Assembly (NCBI RefSeq): GCF_013402795.1
Contig: NZ_CP058595.1
Coordinates: forward strand, 2,830,001 to 2,894,000
Source of the DNA: Costertonia aggregata
Lineage (GTDB): Bacteria; Bacteroidota; Bacteroidia; Flavobacteriales; Flavobacteriaceae
Length of the DNA: 64,000 bases
Direction of reading: 5' to 3'
Made by a program: the position numbers and the translations under genes. A model generated the notes under the pieces. The model did no database searches. It was not told the origin of the DNA and worked only from the letters and a program-made list of their open reading frames with translations. Below are positions 5,101 to 26,262 of this stretch, piece by piece. Every line of letters starts with the position of its first letter. Position 1 is the stretch's first letter.

Positions 5101-6117
5101 TTAAACGTTTGCAGATTTAACCGTTTTCACGATTCGACCTGCAATTTTGTACGGATCACCGTTAGAGGCTGGTCTTCTGTCTTCTAACCATCCTTTCCAC
5201 CCACTCTCTACGGTAGCTATCGGAATACGAATCGATGCCCCACGGTCGGATATACCAAAGCTGAATTCGTCTATGGATTGTGTTTCGTGGTCACCGGTCA
5301 AACGTTGATCGTTAAATTCACCGTAAACCGCAATATGTTCTTTTACCACAGGTCGGAAAGCTTCACAAATTTTTTCATAGGTAGCCTTATCGCCACAGGT
5401 TCTCAATGTTGTGTTCGAGAAGTTGGCATGCATACCCGAACCGTTCCAATCCATATCCTTTCCTAATGGTTTAGGGTGATATTCTATATAAAATCCGTAT
5501 TGCTCTGTCAAGCGGTCTAATAAATATCTGGCGACCCACATCTCATCCCCGGCTTTTTTGGCACCTTTGGCGAACAATTGAAATTCCCATTGTCCAGAGG
5601 CCACTTCTTGGTTGATACCTTCAAAGTTGATTCCAGCGGCGATACACAGATCGGCATGCTCCTCGACCAAATCCCTGCCATGGGTGTTTTTACCACCTAC
5701 TGAGCAGTAATACATGCCTTGTGGCGCTGGATAACCGCCTATGGGGAAGCCCAAAGGTAATTGTGTTGCCGTATCCATAATAAAATATTCCTGTTCAAAA
5801 CCAAACCAAAAATCATTGTCATCATCATCAATAGTGGCCCTACCATTTGATACATGAGGGGTTCCATCGGCATTCAAGACTTCGGTCATGACTAAATAAC
5901 CGTCTTTTCGGGCAGGGTCTGGGAAGATAGCAACAGGTTTCAACAAACAATCGGATGATCCTCCTTCGGCTTGTCGTGTTGAACTTCCATCAAAAGACCA
6001 CATGGGGCAGTCTTCTAATTTGCCGCTAAAGTCGTTTACTACTTTGGTTTTACTTCGCATATTCTGCGTTGGAAAATAGCCATCTAACCAGATGTACTCT
6101 AATTTTGACTTACTCAT
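5101..6117 (-). CDS. glutamine synthetase type II (eukaryotic-type)
   Basis: 338 residues. ATP-dependent condensation of glutamate and ammonia to glutamine, cytoplasmic. The short length and the motifs WSFDGSSTRQAEG, ATP/Glu-binding NGSGMHANFS and DEFSFGISDRGASIRIP identify the GlnII class, which forms decamers in known members, rather than the roughly 470-residue GlnI class. Divergently transcribed from a type III synthetase; the shared 197-base intergenic region holds two ACCC...GGGT inverted repeats and a -7 box TATTTTTG (6163 to 6156, minus). Confidence 0.95.
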   Translation of the reverse strand: MSKSKLEYIWLDGYFPTQNMRSKTKVVNDFSGKLEDCPMWSFDGSSTRQAEGGSSDCLLKPVAIFPDPARKDGYLVMTEVLNADGTPHVSNGRATIDDDDNDFWFGFEQEYFIMDTATQLPLGFPIGGYPAPQGMYYCSVGGKNTHGRDLVEEHADLCIAAGINFEGINQEVASGQWEFQLFAKGAKKAGDEMWVARYLLDRLTEQYGFYIEYHPKPLGKDMDWNGSGMHANFSNTTLRTCGDKATYEKICEAFRPVVKEHIAVYGEFNDQRLTGDHETQSIDEFSFGISDRGASIRIPIATVESGWKGWLEDRRPASNGDPYKIAGRIVKTVKSANV

Positions 6118-6155: not shown

Positions 6156-6163
6156 CAAAAATA
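6156..6163 (-). promoter_or_regulatory. -7 box of the glnII promoter
   Basis: Minus-strand TATTTTTG fits TAnnTTTG. No TTG-type -33 element lies at the expected distance; an inverted repeat centred 27 bases upstream takes its place, as expected for an activator-dependent promoter. Confidence 0.6.
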
Positions 6164-6179
6164 ATTTTTTTACTTCACA

Positions 6180-6200
6180 TACCCCATTTTCGCAGGGGTA
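6180..6200. promoter_or_regulatory. operator-like inverted repeat 1 (glnII)
   Basis: TACCCC (6180-6185) and GGGGTA (6195-6200) separated by 9 bases, centre 6190, 27 bases upstream of the glnII -7 box. The same ACCC...GGGT design occurs at 6230 and twice upstream of the PII gene near 25650 and 25708. Confidence 0.65.
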
Positions 6201-6229: not shown

Positions 6230-6251
6230 TACCCTATGTTTTTTTGGGGTA
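6230..6251. promoter_or_regulatory. operator-like inverted repeat 2 (glnII/glnIII)
   Basis: TACCC (6230-6234) and GGGTA (6247-6251), centre 6240.5. It lies about 78 bases upstream of the glnII -7 box and about 25 bases upstream of a weaker -7-like TAGATTTT (6265-6272) reading towards glnIII, so it could serve both genes. Confidence 0.6.
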
Positions 6252-6314
6252 TTTTATGGTAAAATAGATTTTTAAAGGATATTTTAGCAAATTCATAATA
6301 TACAACATACTATA

Positions 6315-8501
6315 ATGTCCATGTCACGATTTGATGCTATCCGTAATAGCTACATTAGGAATACCATTTCAATTGAAGAAAAAGGGAGACGGTCAGAACT
6401 TTTTGCATCCCATGTCTTTAATGAGAAAAGAATGCTGCAATACCTTACCAAAGATGCCTTGAATAGCGTAAAGAGTGCAATTTTATCCGGAACCAAAATA
6501 GATAGGAAAATAGCCGATCAAGTTGCTGAGGCCATGAAAGGCTGGGCCATATCAATGGGCGCGACCCATTATACACACTGGTTTCAACCATTAACAGGTG
6601 CTACGGCAGAAAAACATGATGCCTTTTTTGACCTTTTGCCCGATGGTACCGCATTGGAAAAATTTGGTGGCGGTCAATTGGTACAACAAGAACCAGATGC
6701 ATCGAGCTTTCCCAGTGGTGGTATCAGAAATACGTTCGAAGCAAGGGGCTATACCGCTTGGGATCCAACCTCACCGGCTTTTATCTATGGTACAACATTA
6801 TGTGTTCCTACTATTTTTGTTTCTTATACCGGGGAAGCATTGGACAATAAGGCACCGCTTTTAAGGGCATTGCATGCTATGGATGAAGCGGCTACCGATG
6901 TTGCCAAATATTTTGATAAAACCGTAACAAAGGTTAATGCGACATTGGGTTGGGAACAAGAATATTTTTTGTTGGACAAGGCTTTGGCGCATTCAAGACA
7001 AGATATTTTGATGACGGGCCGCACCTTGATCGGCCACTCCGCAGCAAAAGGGCAACAACTGGACGACCATTATTTTGGGGTCATACCCAACCGGGCACTT
7101 AGTTTTATGAGCGACTTGGAAAAGGAATGTACCAAATTAGGTATTCCGGTCAAAACAAGACATAATGAGGTAGCCCCCAACCAATTTGAGTTAGCCCCGG
7201 TTTTTGAGGAGGCCAATTTGGCGGTAGACCATAATTTGCTGTTGATGGATGTAATGGATAAGATTGCGGACAAACATAATTTTAAGGTTCTCTTTCACGA
7301 AAAACCTTTCGCAGGCATAAATGGTTCGGGAAAACATAATAATTGGTCCCTAGCTACCGATACGGGCACTAATTTATTGAGCCCAGGTACTACACCTATG
7401 AAGAACCTTCAATTTTTGACCTTTTTTATCAATACCATAAAAGCGGTAGATACGTATGAGGAGTTGTTGCGTTCCTCAATAGCATCGGCTAGTAACGACC
7501 ACAGACTGGGTGCCAATGAAGCCCCACCAGCCATATTGTCGATATTTATAGGCACACAATTAAGTGCTGTTTTGGACGAGCTGGAAGGCGTCTCAAAAGG
7601 AAAGCTTTCCCCTGAGGAAAAAACGGAGCTAAAGTTGAACGTAGTAGGTAAAATACCTGAAATATTGCTAGACAATACCGATCGTAACCGTACATCTCCC
7701 TTTGCCTTTACGGGCAACAAGTTCGAGATGAGAGGGGTCGGCTCAAAAATTAATTGTGCCAAGCCCATGACGGTTTTAAATACCATTGTTGCCAAGCAGC
7801 TCAGAAGTTTCAAAAAAGAGGTAGATACGTTGATTGACAAGAAGAGCCTCAAAAAGGACGAGGCTATCTTTAATGTACTCAGGGAATATATAAAAACATC
7901 AAAGCGTATACGCTTTGACGGCGATGGGTATAGTGATGAATGGGAAAAGGAGGCCAAAAGAAGAAAACTCAGCAATAACAAGGCAACACCTGAAGCATTA
8001 CAAATACTAACATCAAAGGAAACCGTTGCCCTTTTCAAGGAAATGGACGTAATGAGCGAAACCGAGATAAAGGCACGCCAGGAGGTCGAGCTGGAAGCTT
8101 ATATTCTTCATCTTCAAATAGAAGGTAGGGTCTTTGGGGAACTTATTTATAACCACATTTTACCTGCGGTAATCAACTATCAGAATACATTGATAAAGAA
8201 CGTAATGGGACTGAAGGAGATATACGGTGCGGCCCATAAGAATTTAACTGAGGGACAGCTAGGTATCTTGGAAGAAATCGCTGAACATCTTACCGAGGTA
8301 AAGAAAAAAACAGATGCCATGATCCTTACCAGGAAAAAGGCAAATACCTTAAAAGATATCAATGCAAAGGCGAACGCTTACTGCGAAAATGTTAAGCCCT
8401 ATTTTGACGAAATACGCTACCATTGCGACAAGTTGGAGCTTCTTGTTGACGATGCGGTTTGGCCATTGACGAAATACAGGGAGCTATTGTTTATCAAATA
8501 A
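6315..8501 (+). CDS. glnN: glutamine synthetase type III (GlnN)
   Basis: 728 residues, typical of the large type III class found in Bacteroidota and cyanobacteria. Same reaction as GlnII. Class signatures seen: HNEVAPNQFELAP, EEANLAVDHN, GSGKHNNWS, and RLGANEAPPAI; the long helical C-terminal extension is present. An ATG two codons downstream (6321) is an equally good start. Adjacent divergent glnII gives two ammonia-assimilating synthetases under a common intergenic region with likely nitrogen-responsive operators. Confidence 0.97.
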   Translation: MSMSRFDAIRNSYIRNTISIEEKGRRSELFASHVFNEKRMLQYLTKDALNSVKSAILSGTKIDRKIADQVAEAMKGWAISMGATHYTHWFQPLTGATAEKHDAFFDLLPDGTALEKFGGGQLVQQEPDASSFPSGGIRNTFEARGYTAWDPTSPAFIYGTTLCVPTIFVSYTGEALDNKAPLLRALHAMDEAATDVAKYFDKTVTKVNATLGWEQEYFLLDKALAHSRQDILMTGRTLIGHSAAKGQQLDDHYFGVIPNRALSFMSDLEKECTKLGIPVKTRHNEVAPNQFELAPVFEEANLAVDHNLLLMDVMDKIADKHNFKVLFHEKPFAGINGSGKHNNWSLATDTGTNLLSPGTTPMKNLQFLTFFINTIKAVDTYEELLRSSIASASNDHRLGANEAPPAILSIFIGTQLSAVLDELEGVSKGKLSPEEKTELKLNVVGKIPEILLDNTDRNRTSPFAFTGNKFEMRGVGSKINCAKPMTVLNTIVAKQLRSFKKEVDTLIDKKSLKKDEAIFNVLREYIKTSKRIRFDGDGYSDEWEKEAKRRKLSNNKATPEALQILTSKETVALFKEMDVMSETEIKARQEVELEAYILHLQIEGRVFGELIYNHILPAVINYQNTLIKNVMGLKEIYGAAHKNLTEGQLGILEEIAEHLTEVKKKTDAMILTRKKANTLKDINAKANAYCENVKPYFDEIRYHCDKLELLVDDAVWPLTKYRELLFIK

Positions 8502-18791: not shown

Positions 18792-19199
18792 TTACGAATC
18801 AAGGCCGTTGGAGCCAAGTGATAACCGCCATGATTTGAACGATTTTCTAAATACCTTTATCTCTTTGAGAAGTAGGTTCAGATATTCCTTTTCCTTAACA
18901 CCGTCCATTTCTAGACCCTTGCAATAAGAAAGTATGTTCTGGGTCATGATGTGAATAAAATTAGCACTATGTATTCTGACCGAATATGATTGTGAAGACT
19001 CTACCAGCTCAATTTTTTGGGTAATCAATATAGCATCGGTAAGTAGTGCATCTGCAATATGATCCCGTAAGCTGTTGGATTTATATAGTTCCAACAAATT
19101 TTTATTATGCGATACAAAAGCAGCTATCTCCCTGCTCAACAAGCAAAGGTTTATAGCTTTTCTATAAATAGGTAAACGATTTAGATTTTTTCGGGACAT
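18792..19199 (-). CDS. helical protein of unknown function
   Basis: 135 residues, nearly all predicted helix, basic ends, no signal peptide or membrane span. It starts NLNRLPIYRKAINLC and has AALLT-type heptads through the middle; the overall look recalls four-helix-bundle proteins of about 120-140 residues, but I cannot assign a family. Divergent from the Lrp-type regulator gene at 19313 (113-base gap), which might control it. Confidence 0.65.
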   Translation of the reverse strand: MSRKNLNRLPIYRKAINLCLLSREIAAFVSHNKNLLELYKSNSLRDHIADALLTDAILITQKIELVESSQSYSVRIHSANFIHIMTQNILSYCKGLEMDGVKEKEYLNLLLKEIKVFRKSFKSWRLSLGSNGLDS

Positions 19200-19312
19200 G
19201 GTAAATACTATAATTACATAAAAATACGATGAAAATAAAATTTATTACTTTTGATTATAAGGCCTGTAATAGTTTTTAATAACGAATCATTAGTTTTTAA
19301 GTTTTAATTATT

Positions 19313-19765
19313 TTGAATATAAAAATTGATAGTATAAACTGGGAAATTCTAAAACGACTTCAACAAAATGCCCGGGAAAGCTTCGCGAATATCGGCAGGG
19401 AAGTGGGCTTAACGGCACCCGCCGTAGCTGAAAGGGTCAAAAAGCTGGAGGATTTGGGTGTCTTGGAAGGTTACACTGCGAAAGTGTCCCATTCCAAGAC
19501 CGGGCATCAGCTAAAAGCGATTATTACGCTACGTGCATTTATGGGTAAATTAAAGCCTTTTTTAGAAATGGTAAGTACTTTGGACGAGGTTTTGAATTGC
19601 TACAGGATTACCGGCAATGAGAATATTATTATGGAAGTGGTTCTTCAAGATCAATTTCATTTAGAAGTTTTTATTGATAAGCTCATTCAATACGGCGAAA
19701 CCCGAACGCATATCATTTTATCTGACGTTATTTCCGATGCGCCTATCAAAAGAAGAAGTATATGA
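19313..19765 (+). CDS. Lrp/AsnC-family transcriptional regulator
   Basis: 150 residues with TTG start. N-terminal winged HTH (DSINWEILKRLQQNARESFANIGREVGLTAPAV, split by turns) and C-terminal RAM ligand-binding domain from about residue 66 with the Gly-rich TGNENIIMEV loop. Such proteins sense amino acids and act as octamers. Neighbouring divergent helical gene or a distant amino-acid gene (for example ilvE or the LysE exporter in this window) are possible targets; nothing in the sequence decides. Confidence 0.92.
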   Translation: MNIKIDSINWEILKRLQQNARESFANIGREVGLTAPAVAERVKKLEDLGVLEGYTAKVSHSKTGHQLKAIITLRAFMGKLKPFLEMVSTLDEVLNCYRITGNENIIMEVVLQDQFHLEVFIDKLIQYGETRTHIILSDVISDAPIKRRSI

Positions 19766-22784: not shown

Positions 22785-23825
22785 TCAGAACGAGTAAATG
22801 GCGGCTATCAAGAAAGACGATAGGCTCTTTGTCGCTTCGAGATCGTTATCAAGAAAGCGTTCGTCGCTCCAAGAATCTAAACGTATCTCTGGCTTAATTA
22901 TCAAATTTTCTATGGTATAGCTTCCTGTTAATGTAGCTGCAATAACACTTTCGTCATCGGTGCCATCAATACCATCAAAAGGTGTAAAATATTCGGCTCT
23001 TAGACCTAATGTAAAATTATCTGAAGTGGCATATTGCGGATACAAAGCCGCTCCAGCGAAGCCAGCACCGTCATTATCTGCATAAGCTGCATTAATTCCC
23101 AAAAAGAAATCTTCGGACAGGTCAAACCCACCGGTATAGTCAATCTCAAAACCTAATTTAGCGTTTCCGTCATAGTAAAAGTTCAAAAATTGTCCTGAAT
23201 ACCCAAGTTGTGCCCCTAAGGCATATTCCCCGGTAAGGTTAAAGTTTTCATCGGTTACGTTCATTACCGCCAACATTAGGCTAAAATCATCTGATAGTGC
23301 AAAGTCGGCTTTCAAGCCTACGTGGGAAAAAGGACCGCTTGAAAACAAATATGATGTACTATAATTAAAATTGGCTGCAGGGGCAATTACTTCATAGCCT
23401 AAATACGTGTTGAATCTACCCGCGGTAAGGGTCGTTTTTTCAGAAATGTTCCAGTAAGCGTATAATTGGTTCACAAATATCCCCGCATCGCCCCCAGCGG
23501 CTTCCAATGCCCTTGGGCCATAGACCAAATCTGCAACGGCACCCGTTTTTTCTCCCTCATAGCTTGCTATCAAATTTGCAAAACCCAAAGCAAACCCGGT
23601 GGCACCGGCAAAAGAAGTTCCAGGGTTTTGAAATGAGTTTCCTTCATCGCCAAAAATAGGCCTGTCAGATGAGTTCAGATTTGTTCTAAAATACGCATCT
23701 ACACTACCGCTGATAGAAAGCTTTTTTTCTTTTACTTCATCCTCTTGCGCATAAGAAACTGCTGTTGTTATTGTAAAAGCCAATAATAATAGATTTTTTA
23801 CGAAATTTGTTTTTGTAATCTTCAT
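22785..23825 (-). CDS. outer-membrane beta-barrel porin of the ammonium operon
   Basis: 346 residues, signal peptide (cleavage after AVSYAQ). Mature chain is strand-rich with many Tyr/Phe/Gly, KLSISGSVDAYFRTNLN at the start and SSFLIAAIYSF at the end (terminal aromatic), typical of the flavobacterial porin/TorF-like barrels. It follows the ammonium transporter by 100 bases on the same strand, with a hairpin between, so it likely helps solutes (perhaps ammonium or small N compounds) across the outer membrane under nitrogen control. Substrate is inferred from context only. Confidence 0.85.
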   Translation of the reverse strand: MKITKTNFVKNLLLLAFTITTAVSYAQEDEVKEKKLSISGSVDAYFRTNLNSSDRPIFGDEGNSFQNPGTSFAGATGFALGFANLIASYEGEKTGAVADLVYGPRALEAAGGDAGIFVNQLYAYWNISEKTTLTAGRFNTYLGYEVIAPAANFNYSTSYLFSSGPFSHVGLKADFALSDDFSLMLAVMNVTDENFNLTGEYALGAQLGYSGQFLNFYYDGNAKLGFEIDYTGGFDLSEDFFLGINAAYADNDGAGFAGAALYPQYATSDNFTLGLRAEYFTPFDGIDGTDDESVIAATLTGSYTIENLIIKPEIRLDSWSDERFLDNDLEATKSLSSFLIAAIYSF

Positions 23826-23925: not shown

Positions 23926-25230
23926 TTAATGTTGGTTCATTCTAAAATCGGCATATGCATCCATACCGTGTTCGTGAATGTCCAGACCGTCAAGCTCCTC
24001 TTCTTTGGAAACCCGAATACCTACTGTTTTCTTAAGTGCGAAGATGATGATAAAAGCAGATATTGAGCAAAATGTTGCCGTTGCGCCAACCCCTGCCAAT
24101 TGATAAAGAAATTGATCGCCGCCTGCCTTTACGCCAAATATTCCAACGGCCAACGTTCCCCAAATACCACAAACTAAGTGAACGGCAATGGCGCCAACGG
24201 GATCGTCAAGTTTAATTTTATCGATTAGGGCAACCGCTAAAACTATAATGGCACCAGCTAGAAGCCCAATAATGATCGACTCAAAAGGAGACATTAGATC
24301 GGCCCCGGCCGTGATACCTACCAATCCCCCTAAAATACCGTTTAAGAACATGGTAAGGTCCAGATTTTTGTAAAGTAACGTTGAAAAAATAAATGCCCCA
24401 ACACCACCGGCCGCTGCGGCCAAGCATGTTGTGACCAATACCAATGAGGTGCCGGCCGGGTCGGCCGAAAGCACAGAACCACCGTTAAAGCCAAACCAGC
24501 CTAACCATAGTATTAGTACTCCGCCTGCGGCCAACGGAATGTTGTGACCGGGAATGGCTTTAGGCTTGCCGTCCTCTCCAAATTTACCAATACGTGGTCC
24601 CAATAGGTATACAGCGATCAAGGCTGCCCAGCCACCAACGGAATGTACCAAGGTAGATCCTGCAAAATCATGAAACCCTTTTGCATCTGGTGCAGTTTCA
24701 GCAGCTGTTCGTATCAAATCGGCTTCTGCCTGTGTGTTGCCCAATACGTTTAAGAATCCTACGCCCCACTGCCACGAACCTACGATAGGATAAATGAGCC
24801 CTACGTAGACTATGGTAAAAATCATGAACGGCCCGATCTTGATTCGTTCGGCCACGGCTCCGGAGACTATTGTAGCAGCGGTAGCGGCAAACATTCCCTG
24901 AAAAAGAAAGTCAGTCCAATAGGTGTATCCGCCACTGTATGCCAAATCTAAAGTACCCTCGGTATTTAATGGGGCTTCAATGCCAAATCCGGCAAATTTT
25001 AAAATACCCATCTCACCTTCTCCAAACCCTGGGTACATTAAATTAAATCCCCCGATATAATAGAGCAGTAGGCCTACACATATTATAAAAACGTTTTTGA
25101 ATAAAATGTTTATTGTATTTTTTTGTCTGGTAAGGCCGATCTCCAAAAATGAGAAACCCATGTGCATGAAGAATACCAAAGCGGTACATAACATCATCCA
25201 AACATTGTTCGTAGTCAATAATCCTTCCAT
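23926..25230 (-). CDS. amt: ammonium transporter
   Basis: 434 residues, eleven membrane spans, Amt/MEP/Rh family. Conserved parts: FLEIGLTRQKNT, GAVAERIKIGPFM, DFAGSTLVHSVGG and VHLVCGIWGTLAVG, the last two carrying the two pore His. No separate signal peptide is obvious. Inner-membrane ammonium uptake. Lies 28 bases after the PII gene, the classic GlnK-AmtB pairing in which PII blocks the channel when nitrogen is ample; a porin follows. Confidence 0.97.
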   Translation of the reverse strand: MEGLLTTNNVWMMLCTALVFFMHMGFSFLEIGLTRQKNTINILFKNVFIICVGLLLYYIGGFNLMYPGFGEGEMGILKFAGFGIEAPLNTEGTLDLAYSGGYTYWTDFLFQGMFAATAATIVSGAVAERIKIGPFMIFTIVYVGLIYPIVGSWQWGVGFLNVLGNTQAEADLIRTAAETAPDAKGFHDFAGSTLVHSVGGWAALIAVYLLGPRIGKFGEDGKPKAIPGHNIPLAAGGVLILWLGWFGFNGGSVLSADPAGTSLVLVTTCLAAAAGGVGAFIFSTLLYKNLDLTMFLNGILGGLVGITAGADLMSPFESIIIGLLAGAIIVLAVALIDKIKLDDPVGAIAVHLVCGIWGTLAVGIFGVKAGGDQFLYQLAGVGATATFCSISAFIIIFALKKTVGIRVSKEEELDGLDIHEHGMDAYADFRMNQH

Positions 25231-25258: not shown

Positions 25259-25597
25259 TTAATTGATTCCAGCTTGTCCGCTTTCTTTAGTTCGTATTCT
25301 GTAAGCTTCGATGATATCGGAAACGAAAATTTTTCCATCACCTACATTTCCAGAATAAGCGGATTCCAAAATCGTGTTTACGGTCCTTTCCAAAAATTCA
25401 TCGGATACTACGATGGATAGATATCTTCTTTGGATATCCGTAGTGCTGTAAGAAATGCCACGATATACATGACCTTGTTTCTCATTACCGACTCCGGTAA
25501 CGTCCCAGTAGCTAAAAAAGTTTACCTCTATTTGATGCAACGCTTTCTTGACGTCATCAAATTTGGACTTTCTAATGATTGCCTCAATTTTTTTCAT
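25259..25597 (-). CDS. PII nitrogen regulatory protein (GlnB/GlnK family)
   Basis: 112 residues. PII signal proteins bind ATP/ADP and 2-oxoglutarate and control ammonium channels. Seen: KKIEAIIRKSKFDDVKKAL start, a T-loop about two residues shorter than E. coli GlnB that keeps YRGxxY (tyrosine equivalent to Tyr51 present), and the C-terminal signature SGNVGDGKIFVSDI with RIRT. First gene of PII-amt-porin; upstream region holds two ACCC...GGGT inverted repeats and a TATATTTG -7 box. Confidence 0.95.
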   Translation of the reverse strand: MKKIEAIIRKSKFDDVKKALHQIEVNFFSYWDVTGVGNEKQGHVYRGISYSTTDIQRRYLSIVVSDEFLERTVNTILESAYSGNVGDGKIFVSDIIEAYRIRTKESGQAGIN

Positions 25598-25621
25598 TTG
25601 TATAGTTTATTGTTGATCGTC

Positions 25622-25629
25622 CAAATATA
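25622..25629 (-). promoter_or_regulatory. -7 box of the PII-amt-porin promoter
   Basis: Minus-strand TATATTTG, a full match to TAnnTTTG. No -33 element at normal distance; the inverted repeat centred at 25656 is exactly 27 bases upstream, as in glnII. Confidence 0.65.
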
Positions 25630-25643
25630 TGTTAAAAAAATTA

Positions 25644-25668
25644 ACACCCTTAAATATGATAGGGGTGT
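25644..25668. promoter_or_regulatory. operator-like inverted repeat 1 (PII operon)
   Basis: ACACCC (25644-25649) and GGGTGT (25663-25668) with a 13-base AT-rich spacer, centre 25656. Predicted position about 40 bases before transcription start if that lies 6 bases after the -7 box, the place of a class II activator. Confidence 0.65.
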
Positions 25669-25698
25669 GCCTTGTATTTTTATTATTATATGATTTTG

Positions 25699-25718
25699 AC
25701 CCCCATAAATTTATGGGT
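25699..25718. promoter_or_regulatory. operator-like inverted repeat 2 (PII operon)
   Basis: ACCC...GGGT with a 12-base spacer, and inside it the perfect 16-base palindrome CCCATAAATTTATGGG (25702-25717). Centre about 52 bases (five helical turns) upstream of repeat 1. Confidence 0.6.
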
Positions 25719-25890
25719 ATACAAAATATATAGTAAAATATTATGTATACGATATTTAAAAGAGCATATCATAGGGTCAAAAACAATAAAGAGAAGGTCT
25801 AAGTGTTAGAATGAAGCAGGTATTGTTAAAAAAAACAATTATTTCACCGAAAAGGGAAAATTATAATGAATACGATGTGAGATGCTATTT

Positions 25891-26262
25891 TTATAACATT
25901 TTTGAAATCCAAAGCCCTACAGAAATCGCAAGAATACCCACAACAATACTTGATATAGTGTATAATGAAAAAGAGAAAAGTTCACCGGCCCTTAATAACG
26001 AATGTTTTTCAAAGGCAAAAGTGGAAAAAGTGGTAAAGCCACCACAAAAACCTGTGGACAATAATAAAAGTTGGTTTTGGCTCAAAAAATTACCTTTTGT
26101 GGAAAAGCCCAAAAGAATACCTATTATCAAGCAACCCAATATGTTTACCATAAAAGTGCCCAGAAAAAAATGTTGAAAATAGGGGTTGAATGTTTTGCTG
26201 ATAAGGAAGCGAAGAAAACTACCTAAACCACCACCTATAAATACAAGTAAAGCTTGTTTCAT
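25891..26262 (-). CDS. crcB: fluoride channel CrcB/Fluc
   Basis: 123 residues, four membrane spans, normal length. Dual-topology dimeric channel exporting fluoride. Family motifs: GGGLGSFLRF at the start, GTFMVNILGC and GFCGGFTTFSTF. The segment from about 25600 to 25890 downstream contains the PII promoter, not a fluoride riboswitch that I can see; none is visible upstream of the start either. Followed divergently by small membrane genes upstream. Confidence 0.95.
   Translation of the reverse strand: MKQALLVFIGGGLGSFLRFLISKTFNPYFQHFFLGTFMVNILGCLIIGILLGFSTKGNFLSQNQLLLLSTGFCGGFTTFSTFAFEKHSLLRAGELFSFSLYTISSIVVGILAISVGLWISKML

Follow-up and report, generated by a model that had tools for sequence, protein, structure and literature searches.

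Nitrogen genes and paired palindromes in the window

The source genome consists of one contig of 3.91 Mb. The window, i.e. the whole 64-kb stretch of DNA that was analysed, holds two nitrogen promoters. At the first, the gene for the PII signalling protein (112 aa, 25259..25597, minus strand, Pfam PF00543) is followed on the same strand by those for the ammonium transporter Amt (434 aa, 23926..25230, minus strand, Pfam PF00909) and a BBP2-family porin (346 aa, 22785..23825, minus strand, Pfam PF07642). At the second, glutamine synthetase II (glnII, 338 aa, 5101..6117, minus strand, Pfam PF00120/PF03951; gln_syn_GlnII is the top NCBIfam match, under its cut-off) and glutamine synthetase III (GSIII, 728 aa, 6315..8501, plus strand, Pfam GSIII_N PF12437) are divergently encoded, with an operator pair between them. 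GSIII of the source genome is 81-82% identical to GSIII of Arenibacter, Cellulophaga, Euzebyella and Allomuricauda. An ORF of 121 aa at 25811-26176 (plus strand) lies divergent from PII; it has no Pfam or NCBIfam match, and a match to it at 37-56% identity is present in each of 6 syntenic relatives out of 6. This ORF may share the PII operator pair. At 18792-19765 an ORF of 135 aa without family match adjoins an Lrp/AsnC gene, and both belong to a conserved glnII-PII block. Near glnII, at 53-1794, a TPR histidine kinase and a NarL-type regulator are encoded. A similar pair (30-34% identity) was found beside glnII in genome G002 (L167 5790-8079), at whose glnII no operators were seen.

The original prediction described a -7 box and two inverted repeats upstream of PII, and all three were recovered where it had placed them. 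The -7 box TATATTTG lies at 25622..25629 on the minus strand. The proximal operator, recognized from the sequence, spans 25646..25666 (extended ACACCC/GGGTGT repeat 25644-25668) and is centred at 25656. The distal operator at 25699..25718 (centre 25708.5) is supported by its sequence and by the pairs upstream of PII in relatives, and includes the perfect 16-mer palindrome CCCATAAATTTATGGG at 25702-25717 (centre 25709.5). As had also been claimed, the glnII promoter is of the same design. Sequence and pair score place its proximal operator, which is the far one for GSIII, at 6181..6199 and its distal operator, the near one for GSIII, at 6231..6250. The -7 box TATTTTTG of glnII (6156..6163, minus strand) starts 27.0 bases after the proximal centre, as at PII. 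A candidate weak -7 box of GSIII, TAGATTTT (6265..6272, plus strand), is located 24.5 bp from the centre of the near operator, and its position is not conserved among relatives. Both pairs consist of near-palindromes of the form (T/A)ACCC(C)-AT core-(G)GGGT(A/T). In F. psychrophilum the -7 box is placed at -12 to -5 (PMC9723704). If this holds here, the proximal centre would be near -39, the distal centre near -92, and transcription of PII would be expected to start near 25617.

Recurrence of the pairs in relatives

Pairs before PII, glnII and alanine dehydrogenase (ald) were counted with a score of at least 22 and a spacing of 49.5-55 bp. Of 60 relatives, 26 have a PII match. The PII set comprised 13 loci in which PII leads the operon, chosen by reading the upstream sequence; 12 close PII loci following coding sequence and five remote paralogues were left out. 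Pairs preceded PII in 12 of these 13 loci (11 reached 25) and were absent from all 260 shuffles. Before glnII they were present in 16 of 30 loci (13 reached 25; 19 were counted by eye), compared to 1 of 600 shuffles. The ald loci had at least 60% identity and a readable start, two loci without a found start and one truncated locus being left out; 5 of 16 carried a pair (4 reached 25; shuffles 0/320). For GSIII, pairs scoring at least 25 were detected before 31 of 80 loci (shuffles 1/1600). These thresholds were missed at 14/30 glnII, 11/16 ald and 49/80 GSIII loci. When the spacing was left free between 25 and 150 bp, the best pair still fell at 50.5-54 bp in 11/12 PII, 16/17 glnII and 4/8 ald loci reaching 22.

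Genera with a GSIII pair include Arenibacter, Cellulophaga, Euzebyella, Tenacibaculum, Polaribacter and Bizionia. Strong single sites, read without a control set, occurred at GSIII loci of Chryseobacterium, Riemerella, Bergeyella and some Flavobacterium, and no site was found at the GSIII loci of other Flavobacterium and of Myroides. In six genomes a pair scoring 32.5-39.3 precedes a porin-amt operon, five of these operons including PII; this count of six is not unbiased, since five of the operons were picked because a looser pattern pointed there. In five of the six a gene for a protein of about 1500 aa is divergent from the operon. The one that was scanned is glutamate synthase, and its neighbour fits the small subunit. 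A third pair of the source genome precedes alanine dehydrogenase, with the proximal site only half present. The view that identical placement at two nitrogen promoters is not due to chance is borne out by relatives, which show it again before PII, glnII, ald, GSIII and porin-amt operons. Four genomes without a PII match keep the GSIII pair (G005, 28.4; G010, 26.0; G013, 28.4; G033, 30.9), so the regulatory system seems not to need PII.

Specificity of the paired arrangement

Within the 64-kb window only two pairs score at least 22 at a spacing of 50-54.5 bp, namely those of glnII/GSIII (36.9) and PII (32.0). As a background, the same genomes supplied 150 further loci, 398,895 bases in all, which were scanned after removal of 8 loci known to hold nitrogen promoters. 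In this largely coding DNA two pairs reached a score of 25 and none reached 28; AT-rich upstream regions were controlled separately by their own shuffles. A lenient pair cut-off let through 23 matches in 0.74 Mb of shuffled sequence, and weak pairs therefore carry little weight.

Single sites behaved differently from what had been anticipated. A genome-wide scan for ACCC-N-GGGT, as proposed in the original prediction, revealed no excess (246 matches versus 369 for the reversed pattern), and neither the TACCC form (24 versus 28 in the control) nor the AT-cored form (17/18 versus 20/13) was enriched genome-wide. A looser pattern of half-site plus box exceeded its reversed control in just 21 of 60 genomes (own genome 2+5 versus 7+5); it did point to several amt operons. 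Among 20 places inspected in the own genome, 16 lie inside predicted ORFs, and the ald place is the only plausible promoter with the paired form. Specificity resides in the paired, AT-cored and positioned arrangement, not in single sites. The finding that single-site patterns are no commoner than controls would be expected if the repeats were chance occurrences, terminator-like structures or plain DNA hairpins without regulatory role. However, pairing and spacing are constant in many genomes, with almost no such pairs in shuffles or at other loci, which makes this explanation extremely improbable. A cis-regulatory RNA was likewise dismissed: at the gathering threshold, Rfam gave only a tRNA in window 1-40000. 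One further site, TACCCTTTTTTCAAAAGGGTA at L075 1971 (G000:C1:2740970), lies 242 bp before an AlaDH/PNT-related gene and is perhaps a terminator.

Architecture of the paired promoters

The anatomy of the promoters was analysed in a set of 33, picked by eye, with the poor fits PII_L011, PII_L013 and ald_L094 set aside. The distance between operator centres ranges from 50.5 to 54.0 bp (mean 52.41, sd 0.86; 42-62 bp start-to-start were permitted), and the mean corresponds to five helical turns of 10.5 bp. From ACCC to GGGT the sites measure 18-22 bp, mostly 19-20 bp, which is just the range that the score allowed; within it, the spacer variation noted in the original prediction is real. The inward-facing half-sites read CCC in 33/33 promoters, unlike the far weaker outer half of the proximal site. 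At GSIII, weakness is seen in the outer half of the distal site (mean 2.5 versus 7.0-7.2). All half-sites were located by a score favouring CCC, and the figures for half-site strength are therefore flattered.

A perfect TAnnTTTG box starts 23.5-27.0 bp past the proximal centre in 22 of the 33 promoters. The missing -33 box, originally noticed at PII, turned out to be general: TTG at a spacing of 17-23 was found in 1 of these 22 promoters (1.1 expected) and TTTG at a spacing of 19-21 in none (0.1 expected). This fits an activator replacing the -33 contact. At GSIII there is no -7 box at a fixed distance, and TAnnTTT occurs within 20-32 bp in 11 of 31 loci. Between 20 bp before the proximal site and the start codon, GG-N10-GC is absent from all 33 promoters, and control by sigma-54 is therefore unlikely.

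A putative regulator of ammonium assimilation

The sites are paired at constant spacing, keep their position relative to the promoter and are associated with nitrogen genes. We infer that one regulator binds them as a dimer and cooperatively, and activates the genes with nitrogen status as signal. With good confidence, the pairs can be regarded as operators of one dimeric, cooperative and probably activating putative regulator of ammonium assimilation in the Flavobacteriaceae. Its regulon would comprise GSIII, glnII, PII-amt-porin, probably the divergent gltBD genes and, in some genomes, alanine dehydrogenase. The two dimers would occupy the same face of the DNA, five helical turns apart. Cooperation is probable, given that the facing half-sites remain strong whereas one outer half may decay. 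Near -39, the proximal dimer would sit where a -33 element is lacking, and would most likely bring sigma-A RNA polymerase to the TAnnTTTG box at nitrogen shortage. The variation in site length (18-22 bp) is odd for a rigid dimer and counts against this explanation, as do the loci below the pair thresholds, the lack of enrichment of single sites and the variable distance of the -7 box at GSIII.

The same paired operators could be bound by a repressor or a dual regulator, which would release the promoters, weak without a -33 element, as nitrogen status changes. The sites overlap the -33 place, and nothing computed fixes the sign of regulation. On the other hand, only weak activity would be expected from an unaided promoter without -33, and activation is the more typical role of a second site located five turns upstream near -92, as in CRP class I/II promoters. 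We consider a repressor or dual regulator rather unlikely. Support for it comes from Prevotella ruminicola, where PII, amtB, GSIII-2 and gltBD respond jointly to ammonium and transcripts are higher when it is plentiful (PMC5552732). The available part of that account names no DNA-binding regulator (PMC5552732). The sign reported for P. ruminicola is opposite to the one assumed here, which calls for caution. The original prediction proposed that an activator takes over the -33 contact; the missing -33 element agrees with this, and activation rather than repression is the sign that we presume.

The arrangement would function in the manner of an activated promoter of class I plus class II and of the GlnR/TnrA, NtcA and NtrC regulons, and it has the defining features of none of those compared. 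The class I and class II promoters of CRP and NtcA likewise carry palindromic activator sites near -40 and -92 that replace the -33/-35 contact, and NtcA serves nitrogen genes. In contrast, the half-sites here are ACCCC/GGGGT, the AT core varies in length, the promoter is the Bacteroidota TAnnTTTG type, and no CRP/FNR orthologue was found here that tracks the sites. GlnR/TnrA regulons of Bacillota also have palindromic AT-cored sites at glutamine synthetase and ammonium transport genes, whereas here the half-site is another one, the sites are paired 52 bp apart, and the small MerR protein of the MliR kind is also present in genomes without sites. The NtrC/sigma-54 system of Proteobacteria also has palindromes in pairs upstream of genes for glutamine synthetase and PII/amt, but its -24/-12 GG-N10-GC element occurs in 0/33 promoters here. 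Sigma-54 promoters of F. psychrophilum are linked to protein quality control, envelope stress and gliding (PMC9723704).

A more specific reading, which we hold tentatively and at slightly less than an even chance, is that the Flavobacteriaceae possess a master nitrogen regulator of their own, from a family outside those known for nitrogen control. It would be independent of PII and sigma-54, and its paired ACCCC/GGGGT palindromes five turns apart would drive TAnnTTTG promoters without -33. Between glnII and GSIII, two divergent promoters may depend on one pair. Good descriptions of nitrogen control exist for Proteobacteria, Bacillota, Actinomycetota and Cyanobacteria. A literature search yielded no description of a Bacteroidota operator or regulator for ammonium assimilation, nor of a paired-operator regulon. 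Flavobacteria play a major part in degrading algal matter in the sea, and the conserved sequences point to a nitrogen-control switch that many of them would share. The paired site offers a bait of about 100 bp for fishing out the binding protein, and a reporter design for how Bacteroidota promoters work without -33.

Candidate regulators

Candidate proteins were compared between genomes with and without sites, a genome being termed site-less if visual inspection of glnII (and of PII or ald, where these were read) showed no pair; this status was judged at those loci only. No orthologue that tracks the sites was found among the Lrp/AsnC, NarL, CRP/FNR and MerR candidates compared.

A CRP/FNR-family protein had been named in the original prediction as an example of the activator. 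The position near -39 and the missing -33 resemble class II promoters, and 7 of 8 site-bearing genomes encode a close member of the most widespread CRP/FNR group. Yet this group reaches at most 36% similarity in site-bearing G010 and is also present in site-less G002 and G020, and the example was not upheld. In addition, the five members of this group that were inspected carry CxxC cysteines. Judged from sequence starts, the neighbours of these five resemble a heavy-metal ATPase or a stress protein, and those of two members of a second CRP/FNR group resemble sulphate-transporter or rhodanese genes. The site of CRP/FNR proteins is rigid, 22 bp long, and has about 11 bp between half-site contacts; the sites here measured 18-22 bp with a score that admitted just this range. 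The half-site runs here are located farther from the centre than in CRP sites. We consider a CRP/FNR-family regulator improbable.

A small MerR protein of 109 aa, which resembles MliR of Bizionia argentinensis in size and family and has a size like that of TnrA/GlnR, was present in 9/9 site-bearing genomes. In operators of its family (CadR, BmrR), ACCC...GGGT likewise extends over about 21 bp. GNR, the wing motif, is kept in 9/9 site-bearing genomes and is replaced by GDR, GTR and GTR in three site-less genomes of the same family. However, the protein is present in 8/8 site-less genomes as well, and five of these, from other families, keep GNR. Deletion of mliR in B. argentinensis, grown in rich medium, lowered mainly iron genes, and also asparagine synthetase B (PMC9478572). 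The word glutamine is absent from the main text of that study (PMC9478572). We regard it as improbable that this MerR protein is the regulator. With both groups of genomes taken together, the protein was present in 17/17 (L351-L367); it lies near an alaS-like gene in the 12 loci with neighbours listed, often together with LemA-like genes.

Between glnII and PII, an Lrp/AsnC protein is encoded at 19313-19765. Its gene is kept in the glnII-PII block in 6/6 relatives, and Lrp-family proteins control ald and gltBD elsewhere. Against a role as regulator, the protein gave no match at E<=1e-20 in the site-bearing genomes G008, G010, G014 and G025, which are 99-100% complete, and known Lrp sites are shorter. 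This makes it a very unlikely candidate.

NarL/LuxR-type (GerE) proteins were rejected. Among 12 genomes compared, the best group was present in 6 of 8 site-bearing genomes, and it was missing among the 11 of 13 matches that were read in G025 and among the 9 of 9 read in G033. The best matches of the NarL-type regulator at 1162-1794, among the loci read, were 60% in G005, 51% in G012, 41% in G033 and 39% in G010; no match above 38% was seen among the loci read in G008. Among gene families shared by four or more of the 80 GSIII loci, no regulator was recognized save a BlaI-like one, in 10 loci. A BlaI-family repressor and a BlaR1-type peptidase, assigned by Pfam, are encoded near GSIII (L163 3393-3794, L171 8309-10407 and loci such as L178), and BlaI and BlaR1 look-alikes recur in 10 and 7 of the 80 GSIII loci, respectively.
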